From NCBI GenBank assembly GCA_017458125.1, contig JAFTGB010000045.1, positions 1-41,770 of the forward strand: a DNA stretch of 41,770 nt, in the 5' to 3' direction. This document shows positions 30,355 to 41,620 of the stretch, piece after piece (within the stretch, counting starts at the first letter, position 1; each line of letters starts with the position of its first letter). The stretch is from Prevotella sp. (GTDB taxonomy: Bacteria; Bacteroidota; Bacteroidia; Bacteroidales; Bacteroidaceae). The translations under genes and the position numbers were made by a program. Under the pieces are notes generated by a model, which worked only from the letters and a program-made list of their open reading frames with translations, was not told where the DNA came from and ran no database searches.

Positions 30355-30591
30355 ATGGCAAATAATGAAAAAATAGAGGCTTTAAACCGCTTGAAAGTAG
30401 TCCTCGTAGAAAAAGGAAAGACCAGCCGATGGTTGGCAGAGCAGTTGGGAAAAACTGAGCATACCATCTCCAGATGGTGCCAAAATAAGACTCAACCTTC
30501 TATTGCACAATTAAACGAAATTGCAAGAGTGTTAATGGTAGATGTCAGGTCATTGATAAATCCGAGTCAAGAAGCATACAATGAGCAGTAA
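30355..30591 (+). CDS. XRE-type helix-turn-helix regulator
   Basis: 78 aa. A single Cro/C1 HTH fills most of the protein: NRLKVVLVEKGKTSRWLAEQLGKTEHTISRWCQNKTQPSIAQLNEIARVLMV. First gene of the accessory operon; its end overlaps the helicase gene start by 11 bp, so translation is coupled. Small HTH proteins in this position usually repress or delay the defence operon behind them. That role is inferred from context. Confidence 0.9.
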   Translation: MANNEKIEALNRLKVVLVEKGKTSRWLAEQLGKTEHTISRWCQNKTQPSIAQLNEIARVLMVDVRSLINPSQEAYNEQ

Positions 30592-33500
30592 GTTTTTCAA
30601 TAACGATTCAGGCAATACGCTCTTTGAAAAACTCAAAGGTATTGCATGTAATATGGCTAATTTTGACCGATTCCTGGCTGTTGTGGGATTCTTTCGTTCT
30701 TCTGGGTATTTCAAATTGCGAAAAGAACTGAATGATGTCGAGGAAATAAAGATTTTAGTTGGCATCAATATCGATGACATTTTCCGCCGTCATAATAAGG
30801 CCATGCTGATGTTAGAAAACGAGGAAAAGGCAAAGATGGTCTATGATGAGGAGTTCCGTCAGGATATTATCAATGCTCGATATGCTCCAGAGGTGGAGGA
30901 AGGCATCTTGCAGATGTGCCAGGACTTGGTTGATGGCAGACTCCAGATGAAGATTCATGCCACTAAGAACCTCCATGCCAAGTTTTATCTCTGCCTTCCG
31001 CAAAATCACAATGAGAATAGTGATGGCTGGGTAATCATGGGGTCTTCCAATATTTCAGATTCAGGACTTGGCACGTCAAGGGCAGAGCGTTATGAACTGA
31101 ATGTAGCCATGAAGGACTTCGATGATGTGGACTACTGCCATTCTGAGTTTAAGAAGTTGTGGGAAGAAGCCGTTACGCTGACGATAGATGATGTTGAAAG
31201 TATCAAGCAAAAGACCTATTTAGGCTATCAGCCCACACCTTATGAGATATATCTAAAGGTGCTCATTGATACGTTTGGCGACCAGATTGAGGATGATTTT
31301 TCAATTCAGCTGCCTAATGGCGTGATGGAACTGAAGTACCAGACGGATGCCATGATTCAGGGTTTCCAAATGCTCATGCGCCATAACGGCCTGTTCCTTG
31401 CTGATGTGGTTGGTCTTGGCAAGACGATGATTGCCACCATGATTGCCAAGCGATTCATAGAGGCGAATGGAAAGAACACCAGCATTCTGGTGGTATTCCC
31501 TCCTGCCTTGCGTGAGAACTGGGAAAACACCTTTAAGTTGTTTGGCATATCCCGTAAGGCGCAATTCATTACCAATGGCAAACTGTCAAGTGTGTTAGAA
31601 GGAAAAGAGCAGTACAAGGCGAAAGAAGAATTCGACTTGATTATCGTCGATGAAGCACATGGTTTCCGTAATGACGGGGCAGGTAAATACGACGAACTGC
31701 AAAAGATTTGTAAGGCAGATTGTGTAAATGCAGGCTTGTTGAAGAATCAGCGAAAGAAAGTGATGCTGCTTTCTGCAACACCGTTGAACAACCGTCCTGA
31801 CGACTTGCTTAATCTGCTCTTGCTGTTTCAGGACAGTCAGAATTGCACTATTGACGGTATTCCTAATTTGAAAGGTTTCTTTGCAGAATACATCAAGGCT
31901 TACAGAATCCTGATGAAGGAACGCGAAACACGAGATGTGACAGCCGATGTTGACAAGATCTATGAGGCCATCCGCGAAAAAGTCATCGATAAGGTGACAG
32001 TTCGTCGTACACGTCACAACATCGAGAACGACCCAGAATACAAGAAAGACTTACAGGCGCAGGGTATTATCTTCCCCAAGCCTCAGCCGCCTATCTCATT
32101 GGAATATAAGATGGATGCTGATACCAGTAGGCGCTTCTTTTATACGCTGAATGTTCTGTCTGATGACAAATTCGATCCTCATCTGCATTATGCGCGCTAT
32201 CGTGCAGTTGAATTTCTGAAGCCAGAGTTCCGGGCTAAGTATCGGAACGCAGTTCATGTTGGCCAGACGTTGGCAGGTATCTATCGTGTTCACATGGTGA
32301 AGCGTCTGGAAAGTAGCTTCCATGCTTTCAAACTTTCGTTGGCCACCTTGCTTCGTATCACCAACGACATGTTGAAGATGTTTGCCGAGAACAAGGTGAT
32401 TATTGCCCCAGAGTTGAATGTGAAAGAGTTGCAGGCTAAGAATATGGAATTGGACCAGATTATTGAACTGGCCATGAAGAAAGGCTACCAGGAAAGCGAC
32501 ATCCTGTATAAGTCCGACGATTTCGAGCCAGATTTCATTGACATGCTCCGCCATGATAAAGAGGTTCTGGAAGCCCTCAATGCCGATTGGCAGCAAGAGC
32601 GCGATGACCAGAAGTTTGACCTCTTCCGTGACAGACTGGAGCATGAGTTCTTCGACGTGCGTAATGTCTCTGGCAAACTGGTTGTATTCTCCGAAAGTGT
32701 TGATACGCTGAACTATCTGAAGGACAGATTAGAAAACGAGTTAGGCAGAACAGACGTATTGACGATTACTGCCGACAACCGTGACAAGAAGGCTACCATC
32801 ATCAAAGAGAATTTCGATGCCAATAGTGAGGTACAGAAAGACGAGTACAATATCATTCTTACTTCTGATGTGTTGGCGGAAGGTGTCAATTTGCATCGTT
32901 CCCACATCATTGTCAACTATGACTCCCCTTGGAACGCCTCTCGGCTGATGCAGCGTATCGGACGTGTAAATCGTATCGGTTCCGTGGCTGAGTTTATCTA
33001 TAACTATATGTTCTATCCCTCACCCCAAGGCAATGAGCAAATCAAACTCTACGAAAACGCGCTTGTCAAGTTACAGGGTTTCCATTCTGCCTTTGGTGAG
33101 GATGTGCAGATATATTCTAAGGAAGAAATCGTCAAGCAGTTCAAGATGTTCGACAGCAACGTGAAGGACTCGATGGATGAAAAGTTAGCTTTGATTCGCG
33201 AACTGCGCGAGGTTTATCACAACAACCGCGAACTTTACGACAAGGTGAAGCAGTTGCCACTGAAGAGCCGTGTGACCCGCAACACAGGGCGACATACGGA
33301 CAAGTCAATCATCTATGTATCGTCCGACGTAAAGACAGAATTCTATCTGGCTACCGATAAGACAGTAAAGCCTATCGATTTCTTAGAGGCCATCAAGTAT
33401 CTGAAGGCCAAACCTGATGAACAAGCCGCTCCTTTCCAGCCTGACAGCAAGAACTACGACCATGTGAATCGTGCTTTGCGCAAATACACCTCTGAATATG

Positions 33501-33859
33501 TGGAGGCTGCTGACGATGCATCCATCAATCGCACCGATCTCGACAATATCTCGAAGACGGCCCTGAACTTCCTGCGCAGGATTACGCAAGCAATCTCTGA
33601 CAATACAACAAAGGTGCAATGTCATATTCTCACCGACTATATTAATAAAGGTATATATACTCAGTTGCCTCGCCGCCTGCGTGACCTCTCCAAACCCTAC
33701 AAAGGTGACAAAGTGCAAATCAAGACGGACGAAGCCAAACTGAAAAAGGCTTTGGTAGAATTCGTTGATGAGTACCAGACGATGAGTAATGAGATGCAAG
33801 AAAAGGCAGTCCCAAAAGTCAGCGATCCACAAATCATTATTTCCGAAACGTTTATTTAA
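30581..33859 (+). CDS. PLD-nuclease / SNF2-type helicase fusion
   Basis: 1092 aa. Residues about 15-205 are a phospholipase-D-like domain: LHAKFYLC and WVIMGSSNISDSGL give the H-x-K and downstream Asn/Ser of one HKD half-site, as in single-domain nucleases that dimerise. From about 250 to 830 is an SF2 helicase core: LADVVGLGKTMIA (Walker A, near 276), LIIVDEAHGFRND (motif II), LLSATPLNNRPDDL (III), FSESVDTLNYL (IV), LAEGVNLHRSH (V) and QRIGRVNRIGS (VI). The C-terminal 260 residues are charged and unassigned. Role inferred: ATP-driven DNA translocase with a nuclease head that inspects or cuts foreign DNA, partner of the methylase 1.1 kb downstream. Confidence 0.9.
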   Translation: MSSKFFNNDSGNTLFEKLKGIACNMANFDRFLAVVGFFRSSGYFKLRKELNDVEEIKILVGINIDDIFRRHNKAMLMLENEEKAKMVYDEEFRQDIINARYAPEVEEGILQMCQDLVDGRLQMKIHATKNLHAKFYLCLPQNHNENSDGWVIMGSSNISDSGLGTSRAERYELNVAMKDFDDVDYCHSEFKKLWEEAVTLTIDDVESIKQKTYLGYQPTPYEIYLKVLIDTFGDQIEDDFSIQLPNGVMELKYQTDAMIQGFQMLMRHNGLFLADVVGLGKTMIATMIAKRFIEANGKNTSILVVFPPALRENWENTFKLFGISRKAQFITNGKLSSVLEGKEQYKAKEEFDLIIVDEAHGFRNDGAGKYDELQKICKADCVNAGLLKNQRKKVMLLSATPLNNRPDDLLNLLLLFQDSQNCTIDGIPNLKGFFAEYIKAYRILMKERETRDVTADVDKIYEAIREKVIDKVTVRRTRHNIENDPEYKKDLQAQGIIFPKPQPPISLEYKMDADTSRRFFYTLNVLSDDKFDPHLHYARYRAVEFLKPEFRAKYRNAVHVGQTLAGIYRVHMVKRLESSFHAFKLSLATLLRITNDMLKMFAENKVIIAPELNVKELQAKNMELDQIIELAMKKGYQESDILYKSDDFEPDFIDMLRHDKEVLEALNADWQQERDDQKFDLFRDRLEHEFFDVRNVSGKLVVFSESVDTLNYLKDRLENELGRTDVLTITADNRDKKATIIKENFDANSEVQKDEYNIILTSDVLAEGVNLHRSHIIVNYDSPWNASRLMQRIGRVNRIGSVAEFIYNYMFYPSPQGNEQIKLYENALVKLQGFHSAFGEDVQIYSKEEIVKQFKMFDSNVKDSMDEKLALIRELREVYHNNRELYDKVKQLPLKSRVTRNTGRHTDKSIIYVSSDVKTEFYLATDKTVKPIDFLEAIKYLKAKPDEQAAPFQPDSKNYDHVNRALRKYTSEYVEAADDASINRTDLDNISKTALNFLRRITQAISDNTTKVQCHILTDYINKGIYTQLPRRLRDLSKPYKGDKVQIKTDEAKLKKALVEFVDEYQTMSNEMQEKAVPKVSDPQIIISETFI

Positions 33860-33871
33860 GATTCTACAGGC

Positions 33872-34987
33872 ATGAAGCAAACAATCATATCATCAGAATA
33901 TATACATGCAGTCAAAGCGATAAAACAAGCCATTCTTGAAAGTCGCTATCGTGCTGCCCGGCATGTCAACAAAGAAGTGCTGGCTTTATATTATTGGGTG
34001 GGAAACTATGTTTCTGTACATAGTCGTACTGACGCATGGAACACAAATGCCATTGCATCCATCTCTAAAATGCTTCAACAGGAACTACCTGGCTTGACAG
34101 GTTTCTCCGAAACGAACATAAAAAACATGCGTATATTCTATGAAGCATGGAGTCCGATTCTAAATCGGCAACCATTAGCTGCCGATTTGGATAATATACT
34201 GAACCTTAATATTTTGCTAAATCGGCAGCTAATGTCTGCCGATTTGTCCGAAAGGGACTTCGAATGCTTTTTAAGTGTGGGATTTACGCATCATCGAGAG
34301 ATTATAAGAAAGACAGAAACAATAGAAGAAAGACTTTTTTATATTAGGAAATGTGCTACTGAGTTTTGGAGTAAAGAAACGCTTAAATATCATCTTGATG
34401 AGGATTTATATCGCAAAGAAGGTTCTATCCAGCAAACCAACTTCAATAAGACGATTGACAATGCTGCCTTCAAGCAACGTGCCCTTCAATCGTTCAAGGA
34501 TGAATATTTGCTCGATTTCGTTAACATTGAAGACCCTGAATTAGTCGATGAAAGGGTGATAGAGCAGCGTATTATCCAGAATGTAAAAAACTTCATTATG
34601 GCTTTTGGCGCTGATTTTACCTTTATGGGTAATCAGTATCGATTGGAGGTGGCAGGACAGGAGTTTGCCATTGATTTGCTTTTCTTCTCACGCCGTCTGA
34701 GAAGCCTCGTGGCTTTCGAACTAAAGCGTGGAGAGTTCAAGCCAGAATATACAGGCAAGATGAATTTCTATTTGGCTGCACTTGACAAATATGTGAAACT
34801 GCCTGACGAGAATCCGTCCATTGGCATCATCCTCTGCAAGACCAAAAACGAAGAAATTGTCGAACTGTCGTTTTCTGATACCTCTAAGCCAATGGGAGTT
34901 GCTACTTATCGCACAACCAAAGATTTGCCACAGAAGATGAAAGAAGCATTACCTGATATGGACGAATTAAAGAAACTCATCAAATAA
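33872..34987 (+). CDS. DUF1016 (YhcG-like) PDDEXK-family protein, paralogue 1
   Basis: 371 aa. N-terminal DUF1016_N helical domain (about 10-95: ...GFSETNIKNMRIFYEAW), a linker, then a PDDEXK-like domain with FTFMGNQYRLEV, the Asp in AIDLLFFSRRL, and the E-x-K in VAFELKRGEF; EYTGKMNFYL follows. Such proteins are predicted nucleases often found inside R-M loci. 12 bp after the helicase and 10 bp before the methylase gene, so clearly one operon. The linker (about 97-125) is encoded by two 27-bp palindromes that are inverted copies of each other. Confidence 0.88.
   Translation: MKQTIISSEYIHAVKAIKQAILESRYRAARHVNKEVLALYYWVGNYVSVHSRTDAWNTNAIASISKMLQQELPGLTGFSETNIKNMRIFYEAWSPILNRQPLAADLDNILNLNILLNRQLMSADLSERDFECFLSVGFTHHREIIRKTETIEERLFYIRKCATEFWSKETLKYHLDEDLYRKEGSIQQTNFNKTIDNAAFKQRALQSFKDEYLLDFVNIEDPELVDERVIEQRIIQNVKNFIMAFGADFTFMGNQYRLEVAGQEFAIDLLFFSRRLRSLVAFELKRGEFKPEYTGKMNFYLAALDKYVKLPDENPSIGIILCKTKNEEIVELSFSDTSKPMGVATYRTTKDLPQKMKEALPDMDELKKLIK
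34162..34245. repeat. Pair of palindromes inside DUF1016 paralogue 1
   Basis: AAATCGGCA-9-TGCCGATTT (34162-34188) and AAATCGGCAG-7-CTGCCGATTT (34219-34245). The second is the reverse complement of the first at 25 of 27 bases, loop included. 57 bp (19 codons) apart; coded residues NRQPLAADL and NRQLMSADL. Confidence 0.8.
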
Positions 34988-34997
34988 TAGAAGAACT

Positions 34998-37900
34998 ATG
35001 ACCTACAGCAAAGACAACCTACGACAGATATTCCAGCAACCATTCAATGAAGAAGGGTGGCAGAATATGCTGCAAAACTATTTTCATGCGAAGAATCTGA
35101 GGAAAGAACCAGAGCGCATCAACAACACACCCGATGACGAAGCGGGTTATTACCTTGGAAAGCTAAATACTGATCCATATTCCATCGGTCTGTTCTATTA
35201 TCAGATACAGCATGGCAATGTCGCTCGCAAGCGTGTCGGATTGCGCAACCTCGTCAAGTCGTTCATCAATCCTAATTGGGGTGAGTTCGATGCTGCCCTT
35301 GTAGTCTTTGATAGTGGTTCTGTCTGGCGTTTGTCTTTTGTCTGCGACATCAAGGGCGAGAACACTGCTGCAAAACGTTTTACATACGTCTTTGGAGAGA
35401 GCGACAACTACTATAATACACCTGTCGGACGTTTCGACGCCTTGCAACGTAATGGCATTTCATTTGAGACCATCAAGGATGCTTTCTCGGTGGAGCGTCT
35501 GAACAAGGACTTCTTCAATGGCTACAAGGATCGTTACGTGAAGTTCCTCAACCATATCAATGAAGACACCAAAGAGAACCGTGACTATGTGAAGAAACTC
35601 TTAGGCCGCTTGGTATTCCTTCAGTTCTTGCAGAAGAAGGGCTGGATGGGCGTACCTGCCAATCAGCAAGGGTGGAACGGTGGAGATAAATTCTATCTGA
35701 ATCACTTAATAGAGCGTTATGAAGGCAACGACCGCCTGTTGAGCGATGTTTTGGAACCGCTGTTCTTCAATACCCTCAATGAGCGCAGAATCAACGACCT
35801 TACAGACTCTCGTTTGGGAAAGAATATCAAGATACCTTATCTAAATGGTGGCCTTTTCGACAAGGACGACTTGGACAAGAAAGACATTGATTTCCCCTAC
35901 GACTACTTCAAGGAACTCATGGACTTCTTTGCCATGTATAACTTCACCATCGACGAGAACGACCCGGAGGACTCAGAAATCGGCATCGACCCGGAAATGC
36001 TTGGCCATATCTTCGAGAACCTGTTGGAGGACAACAAAGACAAAGGTGCCTTCTATACCCCCAAAGAGATTGTGCAGTACATGAGTCAGGAGAGTGTTGC
36101 ACAGTATTTGAAAAGTCATGCACCCGAAGAACTGCATACTGCCATCGACTCGCTCATCAAACAAAGGGTGGTAGAGCCGATTCTGCAAAATAAGGAGAAA
36201 GCAAGGCTGGTAAACAAAGCCCTTTCCGTCGTAAAAGTCTGTGACCCTGCCATTGGCTCAGGTGCATTCCCAATGGGTGTGCTCAATGTTCTGTTCGATT
36301 GCCGCCATTTGCTCTATGGCTTTATTGGCAAGAATGAAGATTTCTCATACGCCAAGGTGAAGCGTGACATCATCCAGAACAATATCTACGGTGTGGATAT
36401 TGAGAAAGGTGCCGTAGATATAGCCCGCCTCCGCTTCTGGCTGGCATTAGTGGTTGACGAGAATGAGCCGCAGCCATTGCCCAACCTCGACTATAAGATT
36501 ATGTGTGGCGACTCTCTGCTGCATCGTTTTGCCCTCGATGCCCCATTCCAAAACGTGCTGAAGGACTACAATCAAAAGAACGGTACGCACTACACCTTGG
36601 ACGACTATCGTCAGTGGGTCTATGACTATACCGACATTTCCGACCACACGCAGAAAGATGATTTCCGCAAGAGAATTGAGGACATCAAGCGTGCTGTCAA
36701 AACTGAACTCAACGACAAAGAAAAAGGAAAGATTGCTAAAGTCCGTGGAACCATAGACAATCTGCAGATGGAAGATATGTTTGGCGGCAAGAAAAATGAA
36801 AAGAAAATCAAAGCTTTGCAAAAGGAATTGAAGGCTTTAGAGCAACAACGAGCCGAAATAGAGTCTAACAAAATCTACGACCAAGCCTTTGAATGGCGCT
36901 TCGAGTTCCCTGCACTTTTAGATGAGAATGGGGACTTCATGGGATTTGATATAGTCATAGGTAATCCGCCGTATATTCGGCCACACCACCTTCCCGATAG
37001 TACAAAGCATTATTTATGGTCAAACTTTGAAACATACGAGAAAAAAGCAGATATTTATGTTTGTTTTATGGAAATCGCTTTACGAATAGTTAAATCAAAA
37101 GGAATTACTACCCTTATTGTTTCTGATGGTTGGCTCAGATTAGACAGCTTTGAAAAAATAAGGAAGTATATTTTAGCTAATGCCGATGTTTTACAGATAA
37201 TAGATTTTACCAAAGATGTATTTGAATCGGCAACAGTAAAAACCTGCATATTTGTTTCTTCAAAGTGCGCGACTAAAGACAGTCATTTATCTTCGGCGGT
37301 AATAGAAGACAAAGTCAATTTGGATAATATTAAGTTTAACATCATAGAGCAAAGTCAGTTTTCATTTACATACAAAAATGTTTTTGATTTGTCCATTAAT
37401 CACGCATCGACTCAATTAAAAAACAAATTAATGTCCCAATCAAGCACTTTAGGTTCATCATTCTTGTTAGCATTTGGCGTAAAAACGGGAGATGATGAAC
37501 GTTTCCTCACATTTGACCCATTTGTTTCTACAGATTGTAAGAAGTTGGTTCGTGGTGCTGATATAAATAGATGGACAATAGACTTTAAAGGTGAATATGT
37601 AATATATAAGCCCGAACAAATGCGTAAAAACAAGAAAACAGCTCGACCAGGAAATAAAGAAAGATTTGAACAGCCTAAGGTTTTGGTAAGAGATACGGGT
37701 GGAGGACTAATGGCGACATTTGATAATTCTAATTATTATGTCAAGGATGTTATTATTATAGAGCATACGACCAAGTCAACTGCCTTATTGAAAATGCTTG
37801 CAGCTATTCTCAACTCTAAAACAATGCGTTGGTTCTATGAGACCTCCTTCCCTACATTGCATGTTCAACGAGACGAATTAGCATCTCTGCCATTGCCTTC

Positions 37901-38114
37901 TTACATATATAAGACAGAAATTCAAGAAAAAGTTTTATCATTTGTTGACCAAATACTATCTTATAAAGAGGTGTCTATTTTAAATGATACATCTGCTATT
38001 GAGCAACAAATCGACCTCCTCATCTATCACCTCTACGGTCTGACCTACGATGAAGTCCTCATTGTAGATCCAGAGACTCCAATCATACGGGAAGAATACG
38101 AAAAGGAGCAATAA
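34998..38114 (+). CDS. Eco57I-like N6-adenine DNA methylase with target-recognition domain
   Basis: 1038 aa. AdoMet motif I DPAIGSGAFPMGVLN near residue 415; catalytic motif IV IVIGNPPYIRP near 656; both typical of N6-adenine methylases of the Eco57I/type IIG group. A Lys/Glu-rich coiled-coil insert (about 550-630) lies between. About 700-1000 is a TaqI/Eco57I-like target-recognition region (LVRGADINRW ... LPTLHVQRDELASLPLP-like pattern). The N-terminal 400 residues carry no evident PD-ExK, so cleavage may be left to the PLD-helicase or DUF1016 proteins. The DNA from about 36950 to 37980 is much AT-richer than the rest of the gene, suggesting an exchanged recognition domain. Its last 95 bp recur at 39224 and 40651. 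Confidence 0.9.
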   Translation: MTYSKDNLRQIFQQPFNEEGWQNMLQNYFHAKNLRKEPERINNTPDDEAGYYLGKLNTDPYSIGLFYYQIQHGNVARKRVGLRNLVKSFINPNWGEFDAALVVFDSGSVWRLSFVCDIKGENTAAKRFTYVFGESDNYYNTPVGRFDALQRNGISFETIKDAFSVERLNKDFFNGYKDRYVKFLNHINEDTKENRDYVKKLLGRLVFLQFLQKKGWMGVPANQQGWNGGDKFYLNHLIERYEGNDRLLSDVLEPLFFNTLNERRINDLTDSRLGKNIKIPYLNGGLFDKDDLDKKDIDFPYDYFKELMDFFAMYNFTIDENDPEDSEIGIDPEMLGHIFENLLEDNKDKGAFYTPKEIVQYMSQESVAQYLKSHAPEELHTAIDSLIKQRVVEPILQNKEKARLVNKALSVVKVCDPAIGSGAFPMGVLNVLFDCRHLLYGFIGKNEDFSYAKVKRDIIQNNIYGVDIEKGAVDIARLRFWLALVVDENEPQPLPNLDYKIMCGDSLLHRFALDAPFQNVLKDYNQKNGTHYTLDDYRQWVYDYTDISDHTQKDDFRKRIEDIKRAVKTELNDKEKGKIAKVRGTIDNLQMEDMFGGKKNEKKIKALQKELKALEQQRAEIESNKIYDQAFEWRFEFPALLDENGDFMGFDIVIGNPPYIRPHHLPDSTKHYLWSNFETYEKKADIYVCFMEIALRIVKSKGITTLIVSDGWLRLDSFEKIRKYILANADVLQIIDFTKDVFESATVKTCIFVSSKCATKDSHLSSAVIEDKVNLDNIKFNIIEQSQFSFTYKNVFDLSINHASTQLKNKLMSQSSTLGSSFLLAFGVKTGDDERFLTFDPFVSTDCKKLVRGADINRWTIDFKGEYVIYKPEQMRKNKKTARPGNKERFEQPKVLVRDTGGGLMATFDNSNYYVKDVIIIEHTTKSTALLKMLAAILNSKTMRWFYETSFPTLHVQRDELASLPLPSYIYKTEIQEKVLSFVDQILSYKEVSILNDTSAIEQQIDLLIYHLYGLTYDEVLIVDPETPIIREEYEKEQ
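38010..38105 (+). repeat. Methylase-tail repeat, copy R1 (within the intact gene)
   Basis: Encodes IDLLIYHLYGLTYDEVLIVD and the PETPIIREEYEK that follows. Compared with R2, about 7 differences in the first 90 bases by eye. Confidence 0.85.
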
Positions 38115-38141
38115 CCAACAATTAAGAATCGTTTTAATAAT

Positions 38142-39224
38142 ATGAGTAAAACAATAAGCATTATTGACAATGACTATAAGCAATGGGTGAAAGCCCTTGT
38201 CGTGCGCTATCGTCAGAGCCAAATTAAGGCGGCTGTCAAGGTGAATACAGAACAATTGTTGTTTAACCTCAGCTTAGGCAAAGACATTGTTGAGCGCCAG
38301 GAAGAAAATAAATACGGCTCCAAGTTTTACGCATCACTCAGTAGAGACCTGAAAGAAGAAATACCTGACGTTGAAGGACTTTCTGAATCGAATATCAGAT
38401 ATTGCAAGCGTTTCTATCAACTATATTGCCAAGCAATTGAAAATCTTCCACAACTTGTGGAAGAATTGAAAAACGAGAATCTTCCACAGGTTGTGGAAGA
38501 ATTGTGCAGCATACCCTGGGGACATCACAGGCTGATTATTGACCGTTGCTCCAATGACCCCCAAAAAGCATTGTTTTTTGTAAACCAGACTATAGAGAAT
38601 GGCTGGAGCAGGGCTATGCTACTAAACTGGATAGATACTGGTCTTTATGAACGTCAAGGAAAAGCAATTACAAATTTTTCGGCCTCCCTTCCTGCACCTG
38701 ACAGCGATTTGGCGCAGGAGGTGACAAAAGACCCATATAATTTTGCTTTTGCTGGAGTAAGAGGGAAATACAATGAGAAAAAACTAAAGGAGGCCCTACT
38801 TACTAATATCACAAATTTCCTTGTGGAGTTAGGTTCTGGGTTCTCGTATGTAGGACGAGAATACAGGTTGTTGCTTGGTGAGAAAGAGAAATTTATCGAC
38901 CTGCTGTTCTACCATCTGAAACTTAGATGCTATGTCGTTGTTGAGGTAAAAATTGACGACTTTGATTTTCCTGATGTTGGACAGATTGGCGGCTACATTG
39001 TTGCATGTAACCATATCTTGAAGCGGCCAGACGACAATCCGACTATTGGTCTGCTTATTTGCAAGAAGAAGAACGGGTTATTGGCCCAATACTCTTTAGA
39101 GTCAAGTAGCCAGCCCATAGCTATTTCATCTTACGAGTTGGAGCAATTCTATCCTGTAAAGGTGGAAGGTGCTTTGCCTACTATAGAAGAACTTGAAAAT
39201 AAACTAAATGAAAATCATGAATAA
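38142..39224 (+). CDS. DUF1016 (YhcG-like) PDDEXK-family protein, paralogue 2
   Basis: 360 aa. Same plan as paralogue 1 but more distant: N-terminal helical part ending GLSESNIRYCKRFYQLY, then WGHHRLIIDRC, and a PDDEXK-like domain with FSYVGREYRLLLGEKEKFIDLLFYH (Asp) and VVVEVKIDDF (E-x-K), then DVGQIGGY. 27 bp after the methylase stop. Linker residues about 101-120 (ENLPQLVEELKNENLPQVVEEL) are a duplication encoded by two 21-bp palindromes. Predicted nuclease or nuclease-like partner of the modification system; no activity can be claimed. Confidence 0.88.
   Translation: MSKTISIIDNDYKQWVKALVVRYRQSQIKAAVKVNTEQLLFNLSLGKDIVERQEENKYGSKFYASLSRDLKEEIPDVEGLSESNIRYCKRFYQLYCQAIENLPQLVEELKNENLPQVVEELCSIPWGHHRLIIDRCSNDPQKALFFVNQTIENGWSRAMLLNWIDTGLYERQGKAITNFSASLPAPDSDLAQEVTKDPYNFAFAGVRGKYNEKKLKEALLTNITNFLVELGSGFSYVGREYRLLLGEKEKFIDLLFYHLKLRCYVVVEVKIDDFDFPDVGQIGGYIVACNHILKRPDDNPTIGLLICKKKNGLLAQYSLESSSQPIAISSYELEQFYPVKVEGALPTIEELENKLNENHE
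38444..38500. repeat. Pair of palindromes inside DUF1016 paralogue 2
   Basis: TCTTCCACAA-C-TTGTGGAAGA (38444-38464) and TCTTCCACA-GGT-TGTGGAAGA (38480-38500), 36 bp (12 codons) apart. The second equals the reverse complement of the first at 20 of 21 bases. Confidence 0.8.
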
Positions 39225-39318
39225 TCGACCTTCTCGTCTATCACCTCTACGGCCTGACCTACGATGAAGTCCTCATCGTAGATCCAGAGACTCCAATCAC
39301 ACGAGAAGAATATGAACA
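39224..39318 (+). pseudogene. Methylase-tail repeat, copy R2 (no start codon)
   Basis: Would read IDLLVYHLYGLTYDEVLIVD followed by PETPITREEYE, as the end of the methylase, but an in-frame TGA lies just upstream and no start codon opens it. It begins on the last base of the paralogue 2 stop codon. So it is a remnant or recombination scar, not a gene. Confidence 0.85.
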
Positions 39319-39437
39319 TTCAAATAAATGAGAATAGAATAGACCAATGTCTAAACGACATTCAAAAATACGAGAAGTGGGGTAACTTGCTTGCAGGACA
39401 AATTGAATATACCTATTCAACTCCAATGCTCCTGTGA
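39312..39437 (+). other. Possible 41-codon ORF between R2 and DUF1016 paralogue 3
   Basis: ATG at 39312 opens MNIQINENRIDQCLNDIQKY and runs to a TGA at 39435, in another frame from R2. It looks like the cut-off start of a longer helical protein. No family recognised. The remainder up to 39491 has no gene that I can see. Confidence 0.35.
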
Positions 39438-39491
39438 GTGCATCAGCCCAATAAACACGTAATAAATATACAATAGAATCGTTATAGAAGT

Positions 39492-40649
39492 ATGAACACA
39501 GAAAGCAAAAGCATATCGACAGCAGAATTGAAACAAGCGGTCCAAACAATCAAGACTGCTATACTGCAAAGCCAAGGGCGAGCAGCCCGTATGATTAGCG
39601 GCACACAATTGTCTTTGTATTTTGGGGTAGGACTCTATGTCTCTGCCAATTCTCGCGAAGGAACATGGGGGACTGGAGCTATTGATGCCATCAGTGAACA
39701 ACTGAGAAGAGAACTTCCCGGGTTGCATGGCTTCTCTGCCCAAAGCATACGTAATATGCGCCAGTTTGCAGAATTTTGGCAACCATTCTTAATTTGCTCG
39801 CCGACGGCGAGTAAATTGAAAATCGAAGACTTGCAAAGAGAAATAGAGTATGATAGATTTGCCTTGTCAAAATGGTCGCCGACGGCGAGCGAAATTGTTC
39901 GTGATGAGTTCCTTGGCATCAGTTTCTCGCACCACATGGAGATATTACACAAAACGAAAGATATCAACGAAGTACTATTTTGTATCCATGAGACCGTCGT
40001 GCATCAATGGGACAAATATACGCTACGTGATGTGCTAAAAGTGGGAATCCCTCGCCCCGAACATATTGCACCCAACAACTTCGCCCAGACAATGCCATCA
40101 ACAAGACAGGCTATAAAGGCAATCAGAATGTTCAAGGACGAATATCTGCTTGACTATATCAATGTGGAAGATATTGATGCCCGAGAGGAGGACGTGGATG
40201 AGCGTTTGGTGGAGCAGCGAATCATCCACAATATCAAGCGGTTCATTATGACGTTAGGACGCGACTTCACGTTTGTTGGCAACCAATATCATCTGGAGAT
40301 TTACGGAGAGGAGATGTGGAGTGACTTGCTGTTCTTTAACCGTGAGCTGAATGCTTTGGTTGCCATTGAACTGAAAGTAGGTAAGTTCAAGCCGTCCTAT
40401 CTTGGACAACTATATGCTTATCTGCAAGTGCTTGATGATAAAGTGCGGAAACCGCATGAGAATCCAAGTATCGGCATTGTGCTCTGTAAAAGCACTAATC
40501 AGGCCTACGCTGAGTATGCTGTAAGAGATTACAACAAGCCAATGGGAGTTGCTACCTATAAGACTTTCTCGGACATGCCAAAAGAAATGCAGAAAGCACT
40601 TCCCGATATTGAGGAGTTGAAAAAACTGATGGATGATGATGATGTATGA
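39492..40649 (+). CDS. DUF1016 (YhcG-like) PDDEXK-family protein, paralogue 3
   Basis: 385 aa. Closest to paralogue 1: N-terminal domain with GFSAQSIRNMRQFAEFW, then GISFSHHMEIL, and the PDDEXK-like domain FTFVGNQYHLEIYGEEMWSDLLFFNREL (Asp) and VAIELKVGKF (E-x-K), ending NKPMGVATYKTFSDMPKEMQKALPDIEELKK, which matches the end of paralogue 1 even at DNA level (AAGCCAATGGGAGTTGCTAC in both). Ends in an Asp run coded by GATGATGATGATG, where the next reading frame begins. The linker (about 102-135) contains two SPTAS blocks encoded by palindromes. Confidence 0.88.
   Translation: MNTESKSISTAELKQAVQTIKTAILQSQGRAARMISGTQLSLYFGVGLYVSANSREGTWGTGAIDAISEQLRRELPGLHGFSAQSIRNMRQFAEFWQPFLICSPTASKLKIEDLQREIEYDRFALSKWSPTASEIVRDEFLGISFSHHMEILHKTKDINEVLFCIHETVVHQWDKYTLRDVLKVGIPRPEHIAPNNFAQTMPSTRQAIKAIRMFKDEYLLDYINVEDIDAREEDVDERLVEQRIIHNIKRFIMTLGRDFTFVGNQYHLEIYGEEMWSDLLFFNRELNALVAIELKVGKFKPSYLGQLYAYLQVLDDKVRKPHENPSIGIVLCKSTNQAYAEYAVRDYNKPMGVATYKTFSDMPKEMQKALPDIEELKKLMDDDDV
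39797..39889. repeat. Pair of palindromes inside DUF1016 paralogue 3
   Basis: CTCGCC-GAC-GGCGAG (39797-39811) and TCGCC-GAC-GGCGA (39876-39888), 78 bp (26 codons) apart and in direct orientation. Both read SPTAS. Confidence 0.75.
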
Positions 40650-40971
40650 AATAGATCGCCTCGTCTATCACCTTTACGGCCTAACCTACGATGAAGTCCT
40701 CATCGTAGATCTAAAGACTCCCATCACACGAGAAGAATACGAAAAACAAGTGATAAAGAATCTTTCACTGAGGCTCATAGGTCGATACGGGTCAGGATGG
40801 AGTGAGAAAAAGTTGAGACATTGTATCCGCAGCGCGGAGACTTTTTCGGAGCAAGACATTGTCTCCTCAACGCAGAGACAATTGAAATTGCCCGACAAAA
40901 AACTGTTGGCTCAAAAATTGAAAAAGGCTATCGCGATAGCACGGGAACATTATCAAAAGAACGAAAAATAG
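40633..40971 (+). pseudogene. Methylase tail (R3) fused to an internally deleted DUF1016 relic
   Basis: 112-aa frame opened by the overlapping ATG run at the end of paralogue 3. Residues about 7-37 (IDRLVYHLYGLTYDEVLIVD...TREEYEK) are a third copy of the methylase tail. Residues about 40-78 (LIGRYGSGWSEKKLRHCIRSAETFSEQDIV...RQL) match the end of a DUF1016 N-terminal domain, and LPDKKLLAQKLKKAIAIARE matches the extreme C-terminus of that other DUF1016 subfamily. The whole nuclease middle, about 200 residues, is missing. It may be a dead relic or a short regulatory peptide. The frame is intact, so expression cannot be excluded. Confidence 0.7.
40651..40745 (+). repeat. Methylase-tail repeat, copy R3
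   Basis: Third copy of the methylase 3' end, here read in the frame opened at 40633. It shares CCTACGATGAAGTCCTCATC with R2. Confidence 0.85.
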
Positions 40972-40978
40972 AAGATTT

Positions 40979-41620
40979 ATGTCACGACTTAGCGATTTAT
41001 ACAAGGCAATGGAAACATTGCGAAATGAAGGTCTCTCACTGAATGAGGATTTGGAGAGGCAGGTGAGTGAACTGGAAGAAGACATCATCAAAAAAGAGAT
41101 TCTTCCTGTGGTTACTGAGACTATTGAACCTGCATTGAAGCAGGTACAACGGGATTTGGTCTTGGTGGTTGACTACCATCCAGGAATGCCTATTAGCGTA
41201 TCATTGTCTCGCAAGACAAATATCACTCAGTTGATAGATGCCAAGAAGCTAGAGGCTGATCCAGAAGTTGAACACAAGGAGTTTGGGCCTCGTAAGAGCC
41301 GTTCCTCAAAGATTGCCCCCAAAACAGGCTTATGTATCTATCGGAAGGATGGCACAATATTGCAAGAGCATGATGCTGCAACAACATTTACTTCTGCTAT
41401 CGTTGAAGCAGGGTTAGTCAGGGTAAGAGAGCTTGGACTAAAGTTCTGTCGTGTAAATATCGTGGCTACAACTAAAGATAAGAAATACGGACATACCCAA
41501 CGTGAGGCAGCCCCAGGTCTATATGTACTCACCCATAGTAGCACCAAAGACAAAAAGAAGATGTTGGATAAAATCAATGCTGCTCTCAAAATGGGTTGGA
41601 AAATAGAAATCGTCAAGTAA
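40979..41620 (+). CDS. Island protein of unknown function (213 aa)
   Basis: Starts 7 bp after the DUF1016 relic. Residues 1-60 are a charged helix or coiled coil (LSDLYKAMETLRNEGLSLNE...); a mixed middle with two VD/VV strands; residues about 115-213 form a compact basic domain beginning KTGLCIYRKDGTILQE and ending KINAALKMGWKIEIVK. No catalytic motif is recognised and no family is claimed. Tight spacing to the upstream genes and AT-rich codon use tie it to the island. Confidence 0.8.
   Translation: MSRLSDLYKAMETLRNEGLSLNEDLERQVSELEEDIIKKEILPVVTETIEPALKQVQRDLVLVVDYHPGMPISVSLSRKTNITQLIDAKKLEADPEVEHKEFGPRKSRSSKIAPKTGLCIYRKDGTILQEHDAATTFTSAIVEAGLVRVRELGLKFCRVNIVATTKDKKYGHTQREAAPGLYVLTHSSTKDKKKMLDKINAALKMGWKIEIVK

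Follow-up and report, generated by a model that had tools for sequence, protein, structure and literature searches.

Palindromic sites inside DUF1016/YhcG nuclease genes covary with a predicted recognition helix of the encoded proteins

Paired palindromes in three DUF1016 genes of a Prevotella contig

The window analysed here is a stretch of 41,770 nucleotides (nt) from Prevotella sp. (assembly GCA_017458125.1, contig JAFTGB010000045.1), and our subject is a set of three paralogous DUF1016/YhcG genes within it, each of which exceeds the Pfam cut-offs for both the DUF1016_N and the YhcG_C domain. A sequence-only reading of this DNA had noticed that every one of these genes contains two copies of a short palindrome at the same internal site. 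The genes, their palindromic sites and the helices predicted to read them are listed below, all on the + strand.

33872..34987, +: DUF1016/YhcG gene 1, 371 aa (PF17761, E 6e-28; PF06250, E 4e-52; PADLOC PDC-S02); domain make-up DUF1016_N plus YhcG PD-(D/E)XK nuclease
34100..34150, +: predicted recognition helix of gene 1 (GFSETNIKNMRIFYEAW; alignment columns 603-619, from covariation and an AlphaFold2 (AF2) helix in a paralogue), with predicted specificity residues T (34112-34114), K and N
34162..34188, +: 27-bp palindromic site, gene 1 copy 1 (9-bp arms, 9-nt centre)
34219..34245, +: 27-bp palindromic site, gene 1 copy 2, which matches copy 1 better when inverted
38142..39224, +: DUF1016/YhcG gene 2, 360 aa (PF17761, E 1e-33; PF06250, E 9e-55)
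38385..38441, +: predicted recognition helix of gene 2 (residues 82-100; AF2 helix H82-100), with predicted specificity residues S83, R86 and Y87 (covariation columns 607, 610 and 611)
38441..38467, +: 27-bp palindromic site, gene 2 copy 1 (AAATCTTCCACAA-C-TTGTGGAAGAATT; core 38444-38464)
38477..38503, +: 27-bp palindromic site, gene 2 copy 2 (core 38480-38500)
39492..40649, +: DUF1016/YhcG gene 3, 385 aa (PF17761, E 9e-20; PF06250, E 6e-49)
39729..39779, +: predicted recognition helix of gene 3 (GFSAQSIRNMRQFAEFW; from alignment position), with predicted specificity residues Q (39741-39743), R and N
39791..39817, +: 27-bp palindromic site, gene 3 copy 1 (core CTCGCCGACGGCGAG at 39797-39811, AATT/AATT ends)
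39869..39895, +: 27-bp palindromic site, gene 3 copy 2 (core TCGCCGACGGCGA at 39875-39889)

Both copies lie where they had been reported in all three paralogues, with spacings of 57, 36 and 78 nt that correspond to 19, 12 and 26 codons. The unit is wider than the cores first quoted, at 27 bp with A/T-rich ends. The judgement that chance explains them poorly stands for paralogues 1 and 2, each of which has two palindromes by a rule of arm at least 7 and loop at most 11; with 2000 synonymous shuffles per segment, two or more appeared in 5, 4 and 5 shuffles for paralogues 1, 2 and 3. Paralogue 3 alone is unremarkable by this count, as one copy reaches an arm of 7, the other has a 6-nt arm, and at least one palindrome arose in 147 of 2000 shuffles. 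The further claim that the second copy is an inverted first copy holds for paralogue 1 (25/27 inverted versus 22/27 direct), is marginal in paralogue 2 (20/21 versus 19/21) and fails in paralogue 3. Nor does a hotspot for inverted duplication emerge as a general rule: among 69 similar copy pairs the direct match was better in 38 and the inverted in 24, with 7 ties.

A dispersed repeat was considered and rejected for genes 1 and 2: with up to 1 mismatch allowed, their palindromes occur nowhere else in the 3.37-Mb assembly (88% complete). Allowing up to 2 mismatches, gene 1 copy 1 has a single other match there, on C37, with 2 mismatches, and the gene 2 core remains confined to gene 2. The 13-mer core of gene 3 copy 2, too short by itself for judging dispersal, has one exact match elsewhere, on C34. 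The CGGCA-type palindrome pair of window gene 1 is shared by a viral-contig gene (L346, 316-1488) that is 57% identical to it.

A palindromic site recurs across the family

The DUF1016 gene set drew on the genome of the window and on the family and order it belongs to, as well as on named genomes across many phyla, viral contigs and Escherichia coli. Filtering reduced 277 open reading frame (ORF) hits to 232 unique genes of at least 250 codons, 214 of them below 90% identity and 213 with the anchor column, and the best palindrome was scored in the linker of each, defined as the stretch between the FYxxY and W[GST]H motifs. A score of at least 7 was reached in the linkers of 88.3% of the genes (n = 213), as against 4.8% of synonymous shuffles and 1.9% of other windows of the same genes. 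Median best scores were 10.25, 4.0 and 3.5, respectively, and the real linker scored above all ten of its shuffles in 183 of 213 genes. A lack of palindrome excess in other DUF1016 genes had been named beforehand as the outcome that would count against the observation; the comparison was run and gave a large excess at the linker, which together with the synonymous shuffles rules out a chance origin.

Where the phylum was named, scores of at least 7 were found in 31/34 genes of Bacteroidota, 15/16 of Pseudomonadota, 5/8 of Bacillota, 3/3 of Planctomycetota and in the one archaeon, and in 0/1 each of Verrucomicrobiota, Chlamydiota and Deinococcota. Under a strict rule, 183 of the 213 genes contain a 27-bp site. 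Counting copies with a slightly relaxed rule gave a single site in 122 genes, two to five in 62 and none in 29. The family itself is common: 162 of 295 genomes of the window's order have a DUF1016 match (E <= 1e-20), yhcG DNA occurs in 4417 of 5426 E. coli genomes, and 463 of 72,556 plasmid records carry DUF1016 genes. DUF1016 is listed among candidate defence genes (PADLOC PDC-S02).

A dispersed repeat is unlikely for the consensus-type palindrome as well, since 15 of 19 fetched loci lie inside DUF1016 genes, and we did not find the many dispersed, mostly extragenic copies that characterize a repetitive extragenic palindrome (REP). Phage targets were also considered; exact pattern matches in viral contigs were mostly outside DUF1016 genes (inside/outside 2/3, 1/57 and 2/23) and look like chance.

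Anatomy of the 27-bp site

When 286 palindromes were aligned on their centres, pairing exceeded expectation at positions 2-13, was little raised at position 14 (0.45 versus 0.31) and fell to chance from position 15. The unit therefore spans 27 bp and covers nine codons. A and T predominate at positions 10-13 (AATT), the sequence at positions 3-9 is variable among genes, and there is almost no constraint on the innermost pair (paired in 0.57 versus 0.47 expected). These pairing fractions are partly built in, as palindromes were selected by score, which leaves the edge at position 13 and the kinds of mismatch unaffected. The dyad centre falls at codon position 1 in 181 of 183 strict-site genes, and the site is therefore probably ancestral; substitutions on both sides, and not fresh insertion, have probably changed its sequence. 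Whole-codon spacing of copies (101/101) was discarded as evidence because the list held in-phase centres only. Copies within a gene share 5.1 of 8 arm letters and those of different genes 3.4 of 8. Some centres were misplaced, falling between two copies, in the pairing, copy-sharing, first covariation and within-genome paralogue comparisons; when covariation was redone with stricter sites (183 genes), the signal rose.

The mismatches bear on whether duplex DNA or RNA is read. At positions 3-12 we saw 32 coding-strand G.T mismatches where 175 were expected, and 104 A.C mismatches where 229 were expected. An mRNA hairpin should tolerate G.U pairs in its stem, and we observed the opposite: because G.T, which can pair in sense mRNA, is the more depleted class, a sense-mRNA hairpin is disfavoured. 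Some genes, moreover, have copies outside the coding sequence. In all, 20 copies of a gene's own site were found outside the linker, against about 3 expected from other genes' sites; some fall in the leader, some among the early or late codons, and some beyond the last sense codon, with their centres 15-20 nt from it. The idea of an mRNA site read by the protein, raised in the sequence-only reading, thus loses ground.

The predicted recognition helix and the site change together

Immediately upstream of the linker, DUF1016_N contains a predicted recognition helix with the motif GFSxxNLxxMRxFY, in which one residue tracks the base seven positions from the dyad centre. Where this residue is Arg, the base is G in 83 of 84 genes (of the 183 with a strict site), with 21 independent changes agreeing and 0 opposing. 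In held-out genes (62 ORFs, of which 56 were kept and 44 had a site), the pairing recurred in 21 of 22. A second region, GWSRxxL, has a strong raw association with the site that is not independent of phylogeny. Copies near the start codon in one subgroup (L246, L250 and L191), encoding ILRQAVAVI-like residues and far from the linker, follow the same Arg-G and Trp-T rules.

This covariation of bases and residues strongly supports the suggestion that the palindrome is a DNA site read by the encoded protein. Judged by covariation, the encoded protein would read a site in its own gene, as an autoregulator with an intragenic operator or a lambda O-type initiator does. Since the site varies together with the helix residues thought to contact it, self-recognition is the most likely reading for each protein of this kind. 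A diversity-generating linker, which had also been proposed, is disfavoured, since both arms change and do so in step with helix residues.

Natural alleles of E. coli yhcG provide a swap of the kind that this predicts. K-12 yhcG contains three internal copies, and a fourth follows the stop codon; this last is centred ~28 nt past the stop, and both of its arms change between strains. Among ten alleles compared, six (K-12, four others and O157) have the helix GFSAKNLRQMRLFY and four have GFSTRNLWQFKNFY. Between K-12 and one Arg-class allele, identity per 60-column block (gaps counted) is 0.92-1.0 before, 0.78-0.40-0.78 across the helix and palindromes, and 0.90-1.0 after; the upstream non-coding flank also differs (0.5-0.7). 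K85R and R88W accompany a change of d9-d7 from CGC to GTG in both arms of the first site, which is the code's prediction for Arg (G) and Trp (T). The first site of K-12 has one mismatch. The fit is looser in secondary copies: in the Arg class, copy 2 has C at d7. Copies 2-3 are lost in some strains (O157 allele), and in other alleles transposase genes interrupt at copy 3.

Several observations weigh against self-recognition or its regulatory use. A strict-rule linker site is missing in 30 of 213 genes, and 12 of the 56 held-out genes have none (one of the 12 being an anchor failure). Four consensus-like loci among the 19 fetched (L265, L269, L271 and L273) lie outside DUF1016 genes, and the ORFs at two of them showed no DUF1016 link. 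Window gene 1 is itself an exception to the Arg-G rule (Thr with G), as is its phage relative (Ser with G); by a looser rule G occurs in 6 of 100 non-Arg genes, and the secondary copies of Arg genes have G in 28 of 38 cases, where the best copies have it in 83 of 84. Support for the proposed second contact region comes from ~2 independent pairs (p 0.5). Paralogues within a genome do not avoid each other's sites (2.41 versus 2.39 of 8 letters in 34 pairs, some miscentred). Finally, site density is 10.9/kb in the linker and 0.19/kb in the upstream 300 nt, against a background of ~0.1/kb, and this rarity of promoter-proximal sites is odd if the role is autoregulation.

A DUF1016 subgroup, mostly with a PWGQN motif (L067, L070, L075, L238, L377, L379, L413 and L424), seems to have no palindrome, a further point on that side; its function might reveal the purpose of the site. 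So is the finding that, of 28 places with consensus-like palindromes, five in a single genome, L269 among them, are repeats of the same sequence.

Nuclease residues and the surrounding locus

The predicted PD-(D/E)XK active-site columns are nearly invariant (E in 232/232, D in 231/231, E/D in 231/231 and K in 230/231), so that nuclease activity probably matters. Among PDB folds, the best matches are to nucleases (NucS/EndoMS 2vld at E 1.5e-5, with no aligned range displayed).

Direct repeats flank 19 of 215 family entries, compared with 5 of 230 control ORFs, which were mechanical ORFs rather than proven genes, and 0 of 215 swapped flanks; as window gene 2 was entered twice, the 19 entries represent 18 distinct genes. 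This excess makes it probable that the gene sometimes moves as a unit. Related features of the window are as follows.

39223..39316, +: copy of the methyltransferase-gene 3′ end (38009-38102) on the far side of gene 2 (93% identity, 94 nt; flanking direct repeat)
40660..40743, +: another methyltransferase 3′-end copy, on the far side of gene 3 (92.9% identity over 84 nt to the copy preceding gene 3)
40633..40971, +: DUF1016_N fragment, 112 aa (PF17761, E 3e-8), with its own palindrome at 40858-40882
40858-40882: palindrome of this fragment, ATTGTCTC-N9-GAGACAAT

The methyltransferase whose 3′ end is repeated after genes 2 and 3 is of the Eco57I type, with ~90 bp per repeat, and it looks as if each gene had been inserted with a target duplication of about that length. 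The fragment is a fourth palindrome case in the window, beyond the three paralogues. Positions 30581-41620 hold a cluster of PLD-helicase, DUF1016, Eco57I-type methyltransferase and further DUF1016 genes that looks like a defence or restriction locus.

A model and its alternatives

By computation, DUF1016 genes concentrate a site that is held to dyad symmetry and coevolves with a helix of the encoded protein. We infer from this that the protein binds it, and does so as a dimer. Each palindrome would be a 27-bp double-stranded site for the protein of its own gene, with DUF1016_N as the reader: the GFSxxNLxxMRxFY helix, encoded just upstream, would contact bases ~5-9 from the dyad centre, and the GWSRxxL region, encoded just downstream, may contact bases 2-4. 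The site usually occupies the linker codons between these two regions, where almost any sequence is tolerated, and this position keeps lock and key joined when the gene moves. As to purpose, we infer portable autoregulation, our preferred reading, which we judge to have about an even chance of being right: binding would limit transcription of the gene, restraining a possibly dangerous nuclease independently of the local promoter. An intragenic operator suits a moving gene because arrival under an unknown promoter demands immediate self-limitation.

The self-recognition core is common to this reading and to the next two, which differ from it only in purpose. The stronger of these is self-targeting or mobility, which we consider unlikely, if worth serious attention. 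Here the nuclease would bind and nick or cut its own gene, and this would promote gene conversion, copy change or insertion of that gene on its own as a mobile unit. The near-invariant catalytic columns, the direct repeats around 18 distinct genes, the occurrence on plasmids and the E. coli alleles with lost or transposase-interrupted copies are in keeping with it, whereas cutting one's own gene is costly, the site is mid-gene rather than at the gene ends, homologous recombination can also yield direct repeats, and the control ORFs were mechanical. For a homing endonuclease the site would lie in an allele without the gene and be destroyed when the gene inserts; in the genes seen here the intact site is inside the gene itself. 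A replication role like that of lambda O, with the sites as iterons and YhcG helping to start or restart replication, is improbable. Deletion of yhcG is reported to be synthetic-lethal with dnaB, dnaN and parE hypomorphs (PMC2672614), a result that does not decide among autoregulation, self-targeting and replication; these are ordinary chromosomal genes, mostly with one site (122/213), and a nuclease domain takes the place of a helicase-loading domain.

A protein-bound hairpin in mRNA or single-stranded DNA is very improbable. In its favour, palindromes in coding sequence would form hairpins, pairing at the innermost position barely exceeds chance, and a template-strand hairpin is thinkable as A.C mismatches are less depleted than G.T. 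Set against this are the stronger G.T depletion, the A/T kept at outer positions 10-12 even when unpaired, the sites past stop codons and in leaders, and residue-base rules (Arg-G, Glu-C) that are typical of duplex recognition. Functionless selfish insertions of the REP or Rickettsia type, or a mutation bias that perfects palindromes, can practically be dismissed: Rickettsia does have coding palindromes of this kind (mentioned in PMC4316617), but window palindromes 1 and 2 are not dispersed, a single codon phase holds in 181/183 genes, most genes differ in sequence, and the covariation with helix residues extends to held-out genes.

A bolder possibility, which we advance tentatively, is that a nuclease family of bacteria and archaea marks 'self' by a private 27-bp code word in its own gene, lineages rewriting word and reader together. 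With similar reserve, lock and key might then travel inseparably in one mobile gene, and the sequence-specific nuclease might either act on its own gene or be checked by it.

Relation to known systems

We found no description of internal sites in DUF1016/YhcG genes among the titles and abstract openings listed from the literature searched, whose coverage stopped short of preprints and most subscription journals so that absence is unproven, and no assigned function for DUF1016 genes in the same literature. The model gives DUF1016_N a probable function, sequence-specific DNA recognition, with a readable recognition code. A precise target in a laboratory strain makes a long-standing orphan directly testable, and the family offers hundreds of natural protein-DNA specificity pairs with the target readable from the gene, which should be useful for learning DNA recognition.

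E. coli YhcG (COG4804, PADLOC PDC-S02) belongs to the same family as the window genes, and K-12 yhcG carries the same kind of site. YhcG has been described as a predicted nuclease whose N-terminal domain is helical and of unknown kind (PMC1189080); beside that description the internal site and its reading are new as far as we have searched. Among defence or mobile systems we could find no described counterpart of a self-addressed gene. RptR is a dimeric repressor of defence islands that binds repeated palindromes and limits its own restriction-linked operon (PMC12255303); it is a different protein, and its palindromes are 6 bp long and lie in the promoter, not in coding sequence.

Rickettsia palindromic elements are ~100-150 nt long and stand in frame within coding sequence at many places, unlike the DUF1016 site, which has one usual position in one gene family. 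In pT181-type Rep/double-strand origin (dso) and in ParB/parS within spo0J, which serve replication and partition, the gene for the protein contains the site that this protein binds or nicks; to our knowledge neither has a family-wide, self-coevolving code, unlike DUF1016.

The closest parallel is lambda O, whose inverted-repeat binding sites lie in the middle of the gene of the binding protein and vary in copy number between phages, lengthening the protein in frame (PMC7466680). DUF1016 genes are alike in having palindromic sites inside the gene of their predicted reader, with which the sites covary. Unlike lambda O, a replication initiator, DUF1016 is a PD-(D/E)XK nuclease family of bacteria and at least one archaeon, and its 27-bp sites differ from gene to gene.
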